The notes below the pieces were generated by a model. It did not search any database, was not told the DNA's origin, and worked only from the letters and a program-made list of their open reading frames with translations. DNA of 32,173 nucleotides from a virus, in IMG/VR virus record IMGVR_UViG_3300032018_000013, positions 1 to 32,173 of that record; one strand, 5' to 3'. Position numbers and translations under genes: made by a program. Below, one piece after another: positions 14,820 through 32,173 of this stretch (positions are counted from its first letter, which is position 1; every line of letters starts with the position of its first letter).

Positions 14820-14871
14820 AAAGCAAGAGAAAAATGAAATGCCCGATAGGCAAGAACTTAACCTACCGGGC
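14820..14871 (-). terminator. Leader terminator/attenuator ahead of the virion operon
   Basis: Read on the minus strand, GCCCGGTAGG (14871-14862) pairs with CCTATCGGGC (14850-14841) around an 11-base loop, and the stem is followed by T-rich sequence (ATTTCATTTTTCTC). One pair is G-U in the minus-strand RNA but would be an A-C mismatch in the plus-strand RNA, so the element is built for leftward transcripts. It sits about 70 bases before the first virion gene, where a terminator would block late transcription unless passed by antitermination. Confidence 0.6.
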
Positions 14872-15018
14872 AAAACTGCTTGATCCTAAGCCTCTCCCCG
14901 GGGATATAATGGACAAAGAGCAGGAAAAGTCAAGGGGAATTTTACTGGTGGGGGGAGGGATCACACGGCGCCCAACAGTAGCATCCGAGCCGTCCCGATG
15001 GCGTAGTGCGCACTCTGC

Positions 15019-15087
15019 GAATGATCGTTCAGTCACGCAAGGAATGACCGGGTAGTCGCTATGTGAATGACCATTCAGTCACCCAAG
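15019..15087. repeat. Two 23-bp direct repeats with near-palindromic core
   Basis: 15019-15041 and 15065-15087 share 20 of 23 bases. Each starts with a near-palindromic 12-mer (GAATGATCGTTC or GAATGACCATTC) followed by AGTCAC-CAAG. The starts are 46 bp apart. A partial copy (ATCATTCAGTC) occurs at 15648-15658. The form suits a dimeric DNA-binding protein. They lie on the late-operon side of the control region. Confidence 0.6.
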
Positions 15088-15567
15088 CGGAGAAAAACAA
15101 AGTTTCCCAACGAAACTTAACGAGCGCCAGGTAAGGCTTACGTGAAGCTTAGGAATGATTATCGTTATCGATATAGTAAGCCGAACACAAACAAAACAAA
15201 GATTTGCTAACAACTAGTAATTGCAAAGAACAAGTTAGCCGAACAATAAGCAAGGAAGCAATCGATAATCGCTCTTGTCTGCAAAGAGAAGCAATTGTTC
15301 GCTCAATCCAGAAGCTAGTGGAAAACCAAGAAGAAAGTTAGCCAAAGTTAGCTAGGCCTAAGCCGAATAGCTAAGCACAAACAAAAACAAGAAAAGATAA
15401 AACGACTAGGAGAAGAAAGACTAAGCTAAGCAAAGCAACCGAACAACCCTTAGGCTAACCACTAGAAAGCACAAACAATCGTTAGTCACTAACGCTTAGG
15501 CTTAGGTTGCTAACCTGACTAGGGAAGAAACTACGAAACTATGAAACTATGATTGACTATGATGAGC

Positions 15568-15692
15568 CTTAAACAAGCGTTTAAGATGATCTAAACCATT
15601 GGAATTGTTAGGGAAATATGAAATTTTGCGATCTAGTTGATAATAATTATCATTCAGTCTTAAACAAGCGTTTAAGGTGGTCTAAGTTATTG
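15568..15692. repeat. Two 34-bp direct repeats containing CTTAAA-TTTAAG palindrome
   Basis: 15568-15601 and 15659-15692 match at 29 of 34 positions, and all five differences are transitions. Each begins with CTTAAACAAGCGTTTAAG, a 6-bp inverted pair around six bases. The starts are 91 bp apart. A half copy (CTTAAACAAG) occurs near 15832. They lie at the point where the A/T strand bias of the region changes, as iterons or operator sites at an origin might. Confidence 0.65.
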
Positions 15693-16080
15693 AAAATACT
15701 AAGAGAACCGGCAAAATTGGGTTTTCCCTTCTTCCCTAGACCCCGGGGGTTTTAGGAAACGTGGTAACTTATTGACTAAGAACGGGTAGTTGTTCGTCTT
15801 TGTTAATCTAATCAAATACTTAGATTTTGTTCTTAAACAAGACGACTATATTACTTGAATGGAATTTATCAATGATTCCAGGTAGTTAGATTATGGCCAT
15901 AGTTTTTGGGGTAACTTGACAAACCGTAGTCGACTATGATGGGAAGCTAGATTCCACTAGGGCGTCTTTGGAATGTCAAGAAAATTGATACATAGTTTCT
16001 ATACTCTAGGGGGATAATACCTTTCTTCACTAAGTCAATTCACCAAGGGAGAAAATACTAACTAGCAAGAAGAATAGCGA

Positions 16081-16365
16081 ATTTTCCCTTCCTAGTCAAT
16101 AGAAAAAGGGATTTTCCCTTCCTAGCAAGAAAGTTTTCTACCTAGCCGATGACTAGCTGAGGGTTTATGCCAAGGGAAGACTTCTCTCTTGCAAGACAGG
16201 GACATTTCCCTTCCTAGCACCGTCTATTTTCCTGCCTAGTCGATAACACTCGAACGGGGTGTGTTTGCTCACTCGAACGGCGAATTGCTCTCACACTCGG
16301 CTACTACTTCCGAACGTGCCCGGTTTCTCTTCCCAGCTGAGGGCATATACTTGCCTAGGTGATAA
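16081..16365. repeat. Degenerate iterons, TTTTCC-T-CCTAG(T/C)CGATAA
   Basis: CCTAG cores at 16091, 16121, 16141, 16213, 16235 and 16354 are preceded by TTTTCCCT-like pyrimidine runs, and several are followed by CGATRA (16141, 16235, 16354). A relaxed copy lies near 15721 and a distant one at 18159. In the left arm the same motif occurs reversed, at 15396-15420 and 15517-15531. ACTCGAACGG (16249, 16272) and AGCTGAGGG (16155, 16335) are also each repeated. Spacing is irregular, so this is a family of sites rather than a clean tandem array. Confidence 0.5.
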
Positions 16366-17076
16366 TCTTCTGTAGACGCCTTATTTTGGTCTCAGACGGA
16401 GTCTTTTTCTTGGGTATGGACAACACATCTATATATAGGCGGAGCTTCCTTCCTAGGCTAAAATAAGCCGTTTTTCGCTTGGCTTGGATGTTTGGTTTAT
16501 GAGCATGCTAAGCTCACTTCCTGGAGCAAAACAAGCTGTTCTCAGACGGCTTTTCTGAAGCATATGTGCTCTCTCCTGGGTCGATTATGTGCTCCGTATT
16601 CGGGTGCTTTCCCCTGGCTCGAATTTTATACTCATTCTGATGATCGTTCTGGGCTTGGTTTTTGTGTGCTCACTCTGGAGCAATCTAGGGCTTGTTTTTG
16701 TGCATCCTGACGTGGGTCTTCTCTCTTGGCACAATTGTTTTTTGCCGTCTATTGATTCTCTGCTCTTCCGGATGCTCTTCTCTCGCCTGCTTTGTCTGTG
16801 CCTTCGTAATCGATGCCTTTTCCTAGCGGAGCGTTTTCTCTCTGGTGAACATTCTTTTCTTGGCAATAGGTATCCTGATCGGTGCTCCGGGGTGCTCTAT
16901 CGAGTGTTCTATGTGTCCTGTTGTGGTTTAGCGCTATTCTCTAGTCGATCGATGCCGTGGTGATGTCTCTCTGATGCTGTTCCTTATTGCTGTGCCCTGG
17001 ATGTGGTCGATCAGATATCTTTCTCTTGGTTTGCTCCTGGGCTGAAAAATTTTTTATTTTTTATATGAAAAAATAC

Positions 17077-17110
17077 TTGACAAGTTGTTTTGTGCTTGTT
17101 ATATGTCAAG
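17077..17110 (+). promoter_or_regulatory. Early promoter P1 with overlapping operator dyad
   Basis: TTGACA at 17077-17082, a 17-base spacer and TATATG at 17100-17105 form a sigma-A-like promoter preceded by an A/T-rich block (17046-17075). CTTGACA (17076-17082) and TGTCAAG (17104-17110) form an inverted pair with a 21-base gap, so a dimer bound there would cover both promoter boxes. The same arrangement recurs at P2. Transcription should start near 17112, about 48 bases before the ATG. Confidence 0.75.
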
Positions 17111-17159
17111 TGTCGTTAGAAACAATAACCAACTAACCAACCAACCTTAGGAGGGTAAA

Positions 17160-17783
17160 ATGAAACAGGTTGCTATGTTAAAACACGTGAGCTGGAGACA
17201 CGGTGCTGTTGGTGGTAGGATAGCCATCTTTGCAAATGAGGATGGTTACCTGACTTTCAAGCCCATTGGGGGTAAAAACCCTCCAGTGGAGATTACTTAC
17301 GCTATCCTTGATGCCGTTCTTGGTCGAAGATGGCGCCGCATGGCAGAGGAACTCTTCCGCCGGAATACCAACCCCTGGCGTGTAGATGTGCGCCAGGGAA
17401 TGAGTGGTTGTCGGGATCTCGCAACCCGGCGGCTCATTGATGAACGGTTCGCTGAAATCAAGACCACGGCAGTCATCCACATTTCAATGTTCTGGAAGGT
17501 GCCGGGTTTCTCGGGTTATTTAGGGGAACTCGCCCCTATACTCGCTCGTCTGCAGGAACTCTATCCGCAGGTGACAGCCCAGGAGACGGAACCTGACCTG
17601 TGGGAGGGAGAGCTTGACGGCTCCTCATTTGAGATTAAAGTGCTGGAACCCCCGAGTCTGCGAGGTTTTCAGTCGGTAGATGACACGCCTTACCTCGGGT
17701 TGTGGAGCCCGGGGGAAGATGATTCCTGTCCCGAAGGTTCTCCGCTGGCGGAAGACTCTCTGCCAGAGATTGAGATAGTTTAG
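17160..17783 (+). CDS. Unknown early protein in its own transcription unit (207 aa)
   Basis: A 207-residue protein preceded by promoter P1 and a GGAGGG site and followed by a strong terminator, so it is expressed as a single gene, probably first on infection. It has a short Gly/Ile N-terminal part (GGRIAIFANEDGYLTF), a basic helix (GRRWRRMAEELFRRNTNPWR, about 55-74), a middle with Trp/Phe turns and an acidic, disordered C-terminal tail of about 25 residues. Arginine codons are mostly CGN, unlike the AGA/AGG-rich genes after 21.3 kb, and GC is higher by eye. No domain is recognised. The setting suits a host-takeover or anti-defence protein, which is inference. Confidence 0.7.
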   Translation: MKQVAMLKHVSWRHGAVGGRIAIFANEDGYLTFKPIGGKNPPVEITYAILDAVLGRRWRRMAEELFRRNTNPWRVDVRQGMSGCRDLATRRLIDERFAEIKTTAVIHISMFWKVPGFSGYLGELAPILARLQELYPQVTAQETEPDLWEGELDGSSFEIKVLEPPSLRGFQSVDDTPYLGLWSPGEDDSCPEGSPLAEDSLPEIEIV

Positions 17784-18696: not shown

Positions 18697-18730
18697 TTGA
18701 CAATCAATTCAGGCTGTTGTATATGTCAAG
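18697..18730 (+). promoter_or_regulatory. Early promoter P2 with the same operator dyad
   Basis: TTGACA at 18697-18702, a 17-base spacer and TATATG at 18720-18725, with CTTGACA (18696-18702) and TGTCAAG (18724-18730) again 21 bases apart. Similarity to P1 extends from the upstream GCAGAAAAA-TTTTT block to the AGTGT after the -10 box and the AACAA/AACCAA leader. P1 and P2 are therefore duplicated copies, while the 17-base spacers differ. P2 probably drives the long early and replication operon. Confidence 0.78.
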
Positions 18731-19233: not shown

Positions 19234-19250
19234 GAGCCTAAAAATGGCCT
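19234..19250 (+). repeat. 17-bp intergenic repeat, copy 1
   Basis: GAGCCTAAAAATGGCCT occurs here and again, identically, at 29759-29775. It contains a short GCC/GGC stem around TAAAAAT. Both copies are intergenic, lie upstream of a small gene and are preceded by CTCT-C. The function is unknown; a protein-binding RNA hairpin or DNA site is possible. Confidence 0.6.
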
Positions 19251-21261: not shown

Positions 21262-21281
21262 CCCCTCCCGTCTGGGAGGGG
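21262..21281 (+). promoter_or_regulatory. GC-rich intergenic hairpin before the clamp gene
   Basis: CCCCTCCC (21262-21269) pairs perfectly with GGGAGGGG (21274-21281) around a four-base loop. There is no U-run, so termination would be weak. The left arm is also complementary to the GGAGGG ribosome site just downstream, so the hairpin could influence translation of the clamp. An almost identical hairpin follows the clamp gene. Confidence 0.5.
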
Positions 21282-21309
21282 AATAACCAAGCAGAGGAGG
21301 GTTGCTGTG

Positions 21310-22419
21310 ATGAAATTCAATACGAAAGAACTCGTCGAAACATTGACAATCATGAACAAGATGGACAGAGGAACTTTCTCCCATTCTGAATTTGTATTCC
21401 TGAGATCAAGAGACGGGATAACTAAGCTATTTAGAATGAACGGCCATACAGAGATTGTTACAGAATTTCAAACAGACAATATCGACTGTGATGTGGCGGT
21501 TGAAAGAAAGGGCTTGCTGAATGCTGTCAAAGAGGTAGGGAAAAAGAATTCTACTATAACATTGGAAGTAAACAAGGACAATATGACCATGAAAGTAGGT
21601 AACTTTGTGTTGAAGCTCATCGATTCCTCGGACATAGTCTATCATGTGCACAGCGACATCCAGATGTGGCAGTTCCCTGTAGAAGAGCTCTCGAATGCAT
21701 TTAACCATACTATCCATGCCGCAGGATGTGAGAGTGTCATGAACCCTAGCGTCATACACATAGTAGATGGAAAGAGGTTGTATGCATCTGACAATTTCAG
21801 GCTTGCAATATATGATATGAAGGAGTCTCTTGGCACTACCGAGAAACTATGCATTCACAGCTCCTCGGCTAAGTTTATTGCCGATGCTGTTGGTATAACG
21901 AAGGCGAAAACCGGGGATATCGGCGTCACGAATGATATGCTGGTGGTGAGAATAGGAAGACATACAATCGGAGTATGGCTGAGGGACTACATTCTTCCGG
22001 AATACGACCTGATACTGGCAAAGGAGCATAAAACTGTGGTCTATGTAAATGCTCATGACATGATCAATGCGTTGAAGCAAATAAAGAAAATCAGCAAGGC
22101 GGATTATGTCCATATTGAGATGGATCCAAACAACTCTGCCAGAGAACTCACCAGCGATATATACTTCACCGATAGCATACGTCTATTCTCTCGTGATACC
22201 GATGGAACTATTACCGCATCGATCGATGTTCCGGTAACGTTTGATGATAGAGAAAACGAGCGGGTGGAGAAGATATTCAACATACAATATCTGCTGGATG
22301 CTCTAAAACCTGTGGAGAAAGAAATAATTAGCCTATCTGATCCTGGAGCTGATAACGGCTGGATCGATATATATGGTTATCGCTATCGGGTCATGATAAT
22401 GGGCGCTGAGTTGTTGTAA
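21310..22419 (+). CDS. DNA polymerase sliding clamp (beta subunit, DnaN-like)
   Basis: A protein of about 369 residues with the three-domain plan of bacterial beta clamps: KFNTKELVETLTIMNKM at the start, a central SDNFRLAIYDM (like the S/TDxxRLA motif) and LPEYDLILA, and a last domain ending in YRYRVMIMGAELL, the usual position of the C-terminal clamp motif. Beta clamps encircle DNA and tether polymerase. Phage-borne copies are uncommon, and with no polymerase in view this one probably serves the host polymerase or a phage polymerase outside the window. I take the ATG at 21310, eight bases after AGGAGGG; the GTG at 21307 is also possible. From here on Arg codons are mainly AGA/AGG. Confidence 0.85.
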   Translation: MKFNTKELVETLTIMNKMDRGTFSHSEFVFLRSRDGITKLFRMNGHTEIVTEFQTDNIDCDVAVERKGLLNAVKEVGKKNSTITLEVNKDNMTMKVGNFVLKLIDSSDIVYHVHSDIQMWQFPVEELSNAFNHTIHAAGCESVMNPSVIHIVDGKRLYASDNFRLAIYDMKESLGTTEKLCIHSSSAKFIADAVGITKAKTGDIGVTNDMLVVRIGRHTIGVWLRDYILPEYDLILAKEHKTVVYVNAHDMINALKQIKKISKADYVHIEMDPNNSARELTSDIYFTDSIRLFSRDTDGTITASIDVPVTFDDRENERVEKIFNIQYLLDALKPVEKEIISLSDPGADNGWIDIYGYRYRVMIMGAELL

Positions 22420-22429
22420 GAAACAAAAA

Positions 22430-22449
22430 CCCCTCCCGAGTGGGAGGGG
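22430..22449 (+). promoter_or_regulatory. Second copy of the GC-rich intergenic hairpin
   Basis: CCCCTCCC (22430-22437) and GGGAGGGG (22442-22449) form the same 8-bp stem as at 21262-21281; only the tetraloop differs (GAGT versus GTCT). It follows the clamp gene by ten bases and precedes an AAAAGGAGGG ribosome site. The pair flanks the clamp gene and may isolate its message or set its expression. Confidence 0.5.
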
Positions 22450-29716: not shown

Positions 29717-29758
29717 ATCGATAAGTAAATCAATAACTTACACTAGGCTTTTCTCTAC

Positions 29759-29775
29759 GAGCCTAAAAATGGCCT
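29759..29775 (+). repeat. 17-bp intergenic repeat, copy 2
   Basis: Identical to 19234-19250 (GAGCCTAAAAATGGCCT). Here it lies about 40 bases after the helicase stop and about 85 before the next gene. TAGGCT upstream (29744-29749) can pair with AGCCTA in the repeat to form a 6-bp stem not matched at copy 1. Function unknown. Confidence 0.6.
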
Positions 29776-29859
29776 CAGAATCGAAATTTGAAAAGAACGA
29801 TGGAACATACGTGGCGGTTTAAAAATCGTCGTTCTAGGGCAAAACAGGAGGCCTTGGGA

Positions 29860-30039
29860 ATGAACGAGTTGATTGAGAAGAAACTGAAAGATGGGATCTA
29901 CGTAGATATCACTCCACTGGTTGGCGCTGTCTGGCACTGGATACAGATTCACACAGAGAAGCCAGAGATTGATCCTATGGGATGGTCAGAGCTATTGACT
30001 AAGGGAGAAGAATGTGATAAGCAAGAGACGACCACCTGA
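29860..30039 (+). CDS. Small hypothetical protein (59 aa)
   Basis: The frame is open from 29788, but AGGAGG eight bases before the ATG at 29860 marks the likely start. The 59-residue peptide begins MNELIEKKLKDGIYVD, has a Trp-containing middle (VGAVWHWIQIHTE) and ends in a polar Thr-rich tail whose codons also form the first stem of the RNA element at 30032. No family is recognised. It is the last plus-strand gene. Confidence 0.55.
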   Translation: MNELIEKKLKDGIYVDITPLVGAVWHWIQIHTEKPEIDPMGWSELLTKGEECDKQETTT

Positions 30040-30133
30040 TTCCTCGTTAGAGGTTAGGGTGGCATCGGCGCTTACCACCGGTCATTCTGAGGCAACCCAT
30101 TTGCACCCCCTCGTTTGAGGGGGTTATTAATTT
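30032..30133 (+). ncRNA. Structured small RNA element, copy 1, with terminator
   Basis: CCACCT (30032-30037) pairs with GGGTGG (30057-30062). Inside, GATT (30038-30041) and TTA (30054-30056) flank a CCTC/GAGG hairpin (30042-30045/30050-30053). A TTCTGAGGCAA block follows near 30085. The element ends in a perfect ACCCCCTC/GAGGGGGT stem (30105-30124) and TTATTAATTT. Copy 2 at 30184 keeps the inner sequences but changes the outer stem pairs together. The 5' stem overlaps the end of the preceding gene. GGTGG could alternatively pair with CCACC at 30075-30079, so switching is possible. No known RNA family is recognised. Confidence 0.65.
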
Positions 30134-30183
30134 CCCCAGAAAACTGTTGACTAAAAGAAAAAGATATGGTAACCGGAAGATGA

Positions 30184-30295
30184 TCGCCCGATTCCTCGGT
30201 TTGAGGTTAGGGCGACCATAGTAACTAGGGCAGGCGTTCTGCGGCTAGGTCTCGGGTTCGGCGGGTACCCCCTCACACGAGGGGGTATTTATTTT
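30184..30295 (+). ncRNA. Structured small RNA element, copy 2, with terminator
   Basis: TCGCCC (30184-30189) pairs with GGGCGA (30210-30215), enclosing GATT (30190-30193), a CCTC/GAGG hairpin (30194-30197/30203-30206) and TTA (30207-30209). TTCTGCGGCTA follows at 30238-30248 as a relative of the block in copy 1, with a small GCAG/CTGC stem. A terminator stem TACCCCCTC/GAGGGGGTA (30266-30274/30279-30287) and TTTATTTT close it. The outer stem differs from copy 1 at several pairs, yet all remain paired. TTGACT at 30147-30152 could be a -35 box for this copy, but no good -10 is at the right distance. Confidence 0.68.
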
Positions 30296-30297
30296 GC

Positions 30298-30762
30298 CTA
30301 CTCTTCTGGTAGCTCTGAGCACTTGAAGATACCGAATCGCTTGGCAATAATCGGGTATAAATCCTCCGCATAACTAGGGTCGATGATGATCTTTGGTTGT
30401 GGAATCTTCTTCTCGTCTGGATAGTTAAATATCGCTTTCTCGAATCTCACATTCTCTCTGACTAGATCTAACAATACAAGAACAACATCTAACCATTTGT
30501 CGCCCCAGATCTGTCCTAGCCTTTCCTCAAGCTTATCCCGCATGGTGGCATAGACTAGGAGCAACACTTTCTGGTAATCGTAATTCATGAAGACCGATAA
30601 TGCATACAAGAGGTGTAGGAAAGTATATTCTGAACTACCTACCCTAATTCTACGAAAGATCTTGCTTCTAAATTCTGGGCTTTTGTAATAGTCTAAATCG
30701 TCTAACTTGTATTGGTTGTTCTTGATTCTTTCTATGGCAAGTAGTGTTCTCACATGATCCAT
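30298..30762 (-). CDS. Hypothetical protein downstream of terminase (154 aa)
   Basis: A 154-residue, mostly helical protein with two hydrophobic stretches (YTFLHLLYALSVFMNY, VLLLVYATM and KWLDVVLVLLDLVRE). It starts two bases after the terminase stop, without a clear ribosome site, so it is probably read by coupling. It ends next to the RNA terminator of the opposite strand. The hydrophobic runs look like packed amphipathic helices rather than membrane spans. No family is recognised; a packaging accessory is a guess from position only. Confidence 0.65.
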   Translation of the reverse strand: MDHVRTLLAIERIKNNQYKLDDLDYYKSPEFRSKIFRRIRVGSSEYTFLHLLYALSVFMNYDYQKVLLLVYATMRDKLEERLGQIWGDKWLDVVLVLLDLVRENVRFEKAIFNYPDEKKIPQPKIIIDPSYAEDLYPIIAKRFGIFKCSELPEE

Positions 30763-30764
30763 AG

Positions 30765-32173
30765 CTATGCTGTCAGTTTGAGTGTCAGGTCGCCTATCTT
30801 GATAACGTTAGTTGCCTTCTTGTTAAGCTTAGTTTCCTCTTCCTCCTCGTACTGATCTGGAGCTATTCTTCTTAGGAACTTGTCATAGCACTCCCAGCAT
30901 AGAGCGGCGGCAATCACCCTGTCATCATGCCATCCGCTTTGAGCTTCTATAACTGATCCATCTTTGACAACCCTGGTCATTTCCTCGACCAGTTCCTTAG
31001 ACCTGAGAATGATCTTCCCTTCCGTAAGTGCACCACGGAATGCGCCGAGCAGGGATACCTTGGTCTCTGCCGTGGTCTTCCAGTGTCTCACGAAACTTTT
31101 CCTAAGGGCGTCCTGCCTACTGTAGAGATATTCCCTGGATTTTCTGATATTGGTGTTAAACACTTCCTTTAGCTCTTCCGGAAGATTTTTAACCTCTGGA
31201 ACCCAGCCTTCCTTCTTGAGCTTGTCTATTTCTGCTAAGGTAGAGTGACCTACCCCGGTGACCTCTAAGATTACCATTGCGCTGTTGTAGATTGACGCCA
31301 GGAGAAGAACATATCTAGCCAATGCTTGAGGATCTACTTGATTATCTGCAAATTCTGCCACCTGCTCAATTCTGTCCTTGTAGCACTTAAACACTTGTAT
31401 AACAGCGTTATCGGAATCCATATTAGCTCCCATGGTTGGGTCTACGCCAACAGCATACACTCCGCCTTGTTCCGGCTTTTCAAAGATGGTAAGATTGGTT
31501 GCGGAAGAGTCTTTTTCGATGATAAAGTTTCTGTTGTAGTAAATCCGATAACGCTCCGGTTTGGCTTCTTTCACATAGTCCAGCTGAGTATTGATGATGC
31601 TCGTATTAAAGAAGCGCATACCAGAAAGCTGGAAGGCTTGGTATTCCGTGAATGGGAATTCCTGCAAACAGAAGTTTTCATCGTTCATGTATTGTTCCGC
31701 CAGCTGTTTTCTCCACCAAGCAAGCTGAGCCATTGATATTTCCACGCCGTAGAGCTTCTTGACCTGTCTTATCCAAGCCGCTTCTTCCGAGCTAGGAGAG
31801 TATGAATAGAACTTATAAGCTGTCGGCTCTTTGTTGGGGTCAATCCTATAATCTTCTTTCAACCACCATCCTAGGAAGATCGCCTTTTGCACAGGAGATT
31901 TCTTAGCCGTTTCCCACATGTCATAGAAGTCGTTGTAGCCATTTGCCGTAGATTCGTAGATGAACATCCGATATGGATGCGAGTTAGAGAGAGATGCCCT
32001 CACAGCAAAGAGGTCTTCCATATTCTTGAAGTAGGCAACCTCGGATGCGTGTATGTAGTTGAAGCCTCGAGATCGACCTACAGTTCCTTTCTTGTTCGAT
32101 CTGTCTGAGGTATATAAGTAGTGAATTTCCGAGAAGTTATCGAACCTAGTGAAGTCCCTTGTGTTAGTCACCA
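30765..32173 (-). CDS. terL: Terminase large subunit, C-terminal part (5' end outside window)
   Basis: The visible part holds the end of the ATPase and the whole nuclease. IHASEVAYF is the Walker B/catalytic-Glu segment and IYESTANGY is the coupling motif (ESTANG). The nuclease has VGVDPTMGANMDSDNA with the first Asp, VILEVTGVGHSTL with the middle Glu, and the HDDRVIAAA end with the final Asp. Walker A and the actual start lie beyond the right edge; the GTG at 32171 is not a start signal. The protein packages DNA into the head through the portal and cuts concatemers. The gene is far from portal in this window and is followed by one unknown gene. Confidence 0.92.
   Translation of the reverse strand, partial: VTNTRDFTRFDNFSEIHYLYTSDRSNKKGTVGRSRGFNYIHASEVAYFKNMEDLFAVRASLSNSHPYRMFIYESTANGYNDFYDMWETAKKSPVQKAIFLGWWLKEDYRIDPNKEPTAYKFYSYSPSSEEAAWIRQVKKLYGVEISMAQLAWWRKQLAEQYMNDENFCLQEFPFTEYQAFQLSGMRFFNTSIINTQLDYVKEAKPERYRIYYNRNFIIEKDSSATNLTIFEKPEQGGVYAVGVDPTMGANMDSDNAVIQVFKCYKDRIEQVAEFADNQVDPQALARYVLLLASIYNSAMVILEVTGVGHSTLAEIDKLKKEGWVPEVKNLPEELKEVFNTNIRKSREYLYSRQDALRKSFVRHWKTTAETKVSLLGAFRGALTEGKIILRSKELVEEMTRVVKDGSVIEAQSGWHDDRVIAAALCWECYDKFLRRIAPDQYEEEEETKLNKKATNVIKIGDLTLKLTA

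Follow-up and report, generated by a model that had tools for sequence, protein, structure and literature searches.

A tandemly duplicated, structured RNA module with predicted terminators between converging operons of an IMG/VR phage record

Where the rightward and leftward genes of an IMG/VR virus record converge, two short elements, here called e1 and e2, share a plan of helix, linker and terminator, and comparison of their copies points to a real, selected plus-strand RNA module. Stated broadly, the reading that we moderately favour is that e1 and e2 are paralogous 3'-end modules of the early transcript, each a structured 3' UTR with an intrinsic terminator. The window, meaning the whole stretch of DNA analysed, is the entire record IMGVR_UViG_3300032018_000013 (32,173 bases), and its end cuts the gene for the terminase large subunit (TerL). 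Relatives of the element were found in only two IMG/VR contigs, both from metagenome 3300033233; one (L004) carries both copies and the other (L005) carries e1 only. The features of the region are listed below, with conservation given for the window against L004.

29860-30039, plus strand: 59-aa ORF, function unknown, with its stop codon inside the e1 stem
30032-30131, plus strand: e1, whole
30032-30062, plus strand: e1 core (6-bp outer stem, GAUU/UUA asymmetric internal loop, CCUC/GAGG hairpin)
30063-30104, plus strand: e1 linker, poorly kept (9/42 changed, plus indels)
30105-30131, plus strand: e1 predicted intrinsic terminator, ACCCCCTC-GTTT-GAGGGGGT, with interrupted U-tract TATTAATTT
30125-30183, plus strand: spacer between e1 and e2, TTGACT retained, -10 poor
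30184-30294, plus strand: e2, whole
30184-30215, plus strand: e2 core, on the e1 plan with a TCGCCC/GGGCGA outer stem
30216-30266, plus strand: e2 linker, strongly kept (4/51 changed)
30267-30294, plus strand: e2 predicted intrinsic terminator, ACCCCCTC-ACAC-GAGGGGGT, with tail ATTTATTTT
30298-30762, minus strand: 154-aa ORF (ORF154), function unknown, convergent, last gene of the late arm
30765-32171, minus strand: TerL, truncated at the window end

Both elements follow one plan, that is, a 6-bp outer stem, GAUU, a CCUC/GAGG hairpin, UUA, the second arm of the stem, a linker (42 nt in e1, 51 nt in e2) and a terminator made of a ACCCCCUC/GAGGGGGU hairpin followed by a T-rich tail. The e1 core reads CCACCT-GATT-CCTC-GTTA-GAGG-TTA-GGGTGG, with the 5' arm of its stem overlapping the stop codon of the 59-aa ORF, and the e2 core reads TCGCCC-GATT-CCTC-GGTTT-GAGG-TTA-GGGCGA. 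The core pattern GATTCCTC..GAGGTTA has two matches in the window and none in 100 shuffles. The terminator hairpins (30105-30124 in e1 and 30267-30286 in e2) are GC-rich and stable, and each is directly followed by a T-rich tract with at least 5 T in 8, interrupted by A. A preliminary description of this DNA, made from the sequence alone, had reported two elements with a shared stem, hairpin and terminator plan; they are present at the coordinates given there, and in the window both fold accordingly with z about -3 (at 37 C, and for the most part at 70 C as well). The same description singled out a shared linker block, TTCTGnGGC, which does occur but is by itself no better than chance, since 28.5% of shuffles reach its score.

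The rightward genes of the window encode RecT, a sliding-clamp-like protein, a primase-type zinc ribbon protein and a UvrD-like helicase, and the leftward genes encode tail fibres and TerL. The pair had been placed at the meeting point of the early and late arms, and that is where it lies, between the rightward 59-aa ORF and the leftward ORF154-TerL operon. It had been described as next to the terminase gene but lies only near it: downstream of e2 comes the end of the convergent 154-aa ORF and then TerL. All three phages retain the 59-aa ORF with few amino-acid changes. The TerL shares 54% identity with its Hydrogenobaculum phage 1 counterpart, which makes a thermophilic Aquificales host possible for this phage. 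A search for tRNA and tmRNA returned none.

Other features of the window were recorded in passing. An exact repeat, GAGCCTAAAAATGGCC, occurs at 19234-19249 and 29759-29774 (plus strand) in the leaders of two small ORFs, each copy directly after a hairpin or at its 3' strand; the segment 19164-19250 has a 12-bp stem, with possible pseudoknot pairing between its loop and GAGCC, and L004 and L005 both retain the copy at 29759, with 1-2 changes. There are signs of structure throughout the 59-aa ORF leader (29717-29859, plus strand) as well: it has a GRACGA...TCGTYC stem in which an A-T pair of the window is G-C in L004 and L005, and a GGCCTC there could mask the Shine-Dalgarno sequence. Near-identical hairpins, CCCCTCCC-4 nt-GGGAGGGG, at 21262-21281 and 22430-22449 flank the clamp-like gene (21307-22419), which is absent at that place in the L004 contig and looks like a cassette swapped between the flanking hairpin repeats. 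The divergent arms are separated by 2.3 kb (14834-17160) in which no gene is convincing; at the end of this segment stands a strong sigma-70-like promoter (17077), which recurs in similar form, with its flank, at 18697.

The elements form one duplicated unit in direct repeat, 152 nt from start to start, in agreement with the spacing of about 150 bases noted earlier. The unit begins some 40 nt upstream of the stem, and from 30144 the spacer repeats, in diverged form, the 3' end of the 59-aa ORF (it matches 29992 onward, 71%). The direct repeats thus exclude two independent inventions; e1 and e2 are paralogous, and e2 is best described as a tandem duplicate of e1 that includes the ORF tail. A peptide frame through e2 from 30147 was rejected as coding because the changes between the window and L004, judged by eye, mostly alter the amino acid.

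A search for homologues by covariance model had been advised in the preliminary description. Pattern scans, three over viral contigs and one over genome contigs, returned the two sister contigs L004 and L005 and otherwise chance matches, and filtering by outer-stem pairing and by a covariance model, R1, found no further relative (some of the fetched loci L201-L229 were examined by stem pairing only). No convincing covariance-model match came from the other TerL relatives searched, among them Hydrogenobaculum phage 1 and L011-L013; a search for TerL relatives in genomes and one for DNA similarity in phage records found none. An Rfam scan of the window gave 0 matches and a second Rfam scan two chance matches (E 2.5-3.1, below the gathering threshold), in line with the earlier remark that no family with this asymmetric GAUU/UUA loop was known to its author. 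The RNA module, previously unnamed and without an Rfam name, seems from these searches to be confined to one small lineage. In L005 an e1-type terminator loop is joined to e2-type downstream sequence, a junction expected from recombination between the two terminators, with e2 lost or not yet gained. The TerL proteins of relatives that differ in copy number are 94-98% identical.

All 6 pairs of the outer stem are intact in all 5 sequences, and 3 of the 6 have changed on both sides. These compensatory changes, put forward earlier as the mark of a selected RNA, are real but taken alone they are weak evidence, because all 5 arm changes between the two copies of the window are transitions, and of random draws with 5 changes 1-18% leave every outer-stem pair intact, the figure varying with the transition bias. 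Chance pairing at this level is what would be seen if e1 and e2 were an unselected remnant of duplication whose stems look conserved since too little time has elapsed, and the inner core hairpin of L004 e1, broken at one pair and apparently decaying, and the lack of e2 in L005 fit the same idea. The rate of divergence makes it very unlikely. Between the window and L004, e2 differs at 7/103 sites, against 203/647 (31%) of four-fold codon sites in neighbouring genes (Fisher p 2e-8), and e1 at 14/93 sites against the same four-fold sites (p 9e-4). We regard this slow divergence as better evidence of selection than the stem pairing. The e2 terminator hairpin has 0/20 changes, and terminator-type hairpins are present in all five copies, their stem invariant and never broken. 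Local recombination could also lower the divergence of e2 between the window and L004, but the spacer on one flank (9/58 changed) and ORF154 on the other give no hint of a long exchanged tract.

Several of the retained pairs are U-G (in window e1, L005 e1 and L004 e2), and these would fail to pair in a DNA palindrome or an opposite-strand RNA, so that the plus-strand RNA is what is kept. The same pairs count against a DNA-level site near terminase, whether for packaging, for recombination or as a palindrome bound by protein. TerL does lie nearby, and the terminators have acted as recombination points between relatives; copy number varies, however, although the TerL proteins concerned are 94-98% identical, and the element is missing from the remaining TerL relatives searched, so we give such a site hardly any credence. 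A packaging-related RNA, one of the roles first suggested, fares badly for similar reasons, with only one copy in L005 despite its 94%-identical TerL and none in the other searched relatives. The broader claim of a selected RNA held up, on plus-strand pairing, retention in two further phages and slow divergence relative to four-fold sites.

The proposed core fold is not the minimum-energy fold at 37 C for L004 e2 and L005 e1, nor at 70 C for L005; the one part that adopts the core fold in all copies is the growing 5' segment, and in L004 e1 it does so weakly. An attenuator could be imagined here, since the CCUC/GAGG of the core is also the inner stem sequence of the terminator, and the two might swap partners so that termination is regulated. 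The shared sequence is found in all five copies, with the exception of one changed base in L004 e1, and the swapped fold is preferred in L005 e1 by about 4.7 kcal/mol. In the window and L004 copies, however, the probability of the swapped pairing is about 0, and there is no plus-strand gene downstream to regulate; we consider attenuation very improbable.

More weight, though still on the doubtful side, goes to a pair of small-RNA genes in their own right, each having a promoter directly upstream (TTGACY, 15 nt, extended -10) and a terminator, giving trans-acting RNAs of ~100 and ~112 nt that pair through the linker. The 5' helix, linker and terminator are the typical plan of such genes, TTGACY is retained upstream of all five copies, the e2 linker is strongly conserved, and the L004 e2 promoter scores very well (0.09 such matches per kb). 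It is the only copy with a good -10, however, the other four being ordinary or poor: the window copies have ordinary promoter scores (2.3-2.6 such matches per kb on this strand), L004 e1 scores worse than they do, and the TTGACY-15-GATAAK arrangement is lost in window e2 and L004 e1. By comparison, two promoter-like sites of the early region, at 17077 and 18697, score with the best in the window. The sequence upstream of e1 is moreover coding. No convincing target was found for the trans-acting RNAs that the preliminary description had raised as a possibility. The only long complementarity, a 10-nt pairing of the e1 linker (30084-30093) with the leader of the 59-aa ORF (29772-29781), reaches a score attained by 0.3% of leader shuffles; it was rejected because over the whole window it is no better than chance, the e1 linker having 10-nt matches at two other places, and because the pairing is broken in L005.

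The 3'-end module, by contrast, explains most of these features more simply than a trans-acting small RNA, though it does not on its own account for the conserved e2 linker. Its position supports it, the pair lying straight after the ORF stop and straight before the convergent operon, and so do the terminator-type hairpins of all five copies, the fully paired outer stem, the plus-strand U-G pairs, the slow divergence, the ORF end carried in the duplicated unit and the junction in L005. In this model e1 would be the 3' UTR of the 59-aa ORF in the rightward (early) operon, and e2 a duplicate of that 3' UTR and terminator together with the ORF tail. Acting as a double terminator, we infer, the two would halt rightward transcription before it entered the convergent ORF154-TerL operon as antisense. 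A terminator needs neither a core nor an e2 linker conserved to this degree, so the most likely task of the selected helix and of that linker is to shape or protect the newly made 3' end, or the module may be released and persist as a 3'-end-derived small RNA of ~100 nt. The copies are probably at least partly redundant, since L005 keeps only one and the core helix of L004 e1 is weakened. Against the 3'-end module stand the conserved e2 linker, unneeded by a terminator, the A-interrupted U-tracts, the alternative folds of L004 e2 and L005 e1, the weak core hairpin of L004 e1 and the absence of the element from the other searched TerL relatives.

A more specific proposal, that this is a new small regulatory RNA, tandemly duplicated at the 3' end of the early operon and acting through a GAUU/UUA recognition loop and a sequence-specific linker on an mRNA or protein of phage or host, we rate as rather unlikely. 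If true, a poorly known, possibly thermophilic phage group would contribute a small RNA to a short list. If e1 and e2 are terminator modules, they would illustrate how convergent phage operons gain and lose insulation by recombination between repeated terminators.

Among known systems, the put RNAs of phage HK022 also come as two short, helix-containing elements of related sequence. Unlike put, e1 and e2 lie at an operon end, directly before terminators, where no downstream plus-strand gene gains from antitermination, and the Rfam scans gave no match that would link them. The pRNA of phi29 is a small structured phage RNA encoded not far from packaging genes; e1 and e2 differ from it in plan, match no Rfam family in the scans, vary in copy number and have no counterpart in the other TerL relatives searched. 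Tandem intrinsic (Rho-independent) terminators between converging operons are alike in their GC-rich hairpin and T-rich tail. Unlike ordinary tandem terminators, e1 and e2 have a conserved helix before the hairpin, a conserved linker in e2 and an A-interrupted tail. The class of 3' UTR-derived small RNAs, of which one acting on a filamentous phage is reported (PMC13250501), resembles e1 in its start at an ORF stop codon, 5' structure, linker, terminal terminator and length of about 100 nt, and differs in that e1 and e2 are known here from sequence alone.
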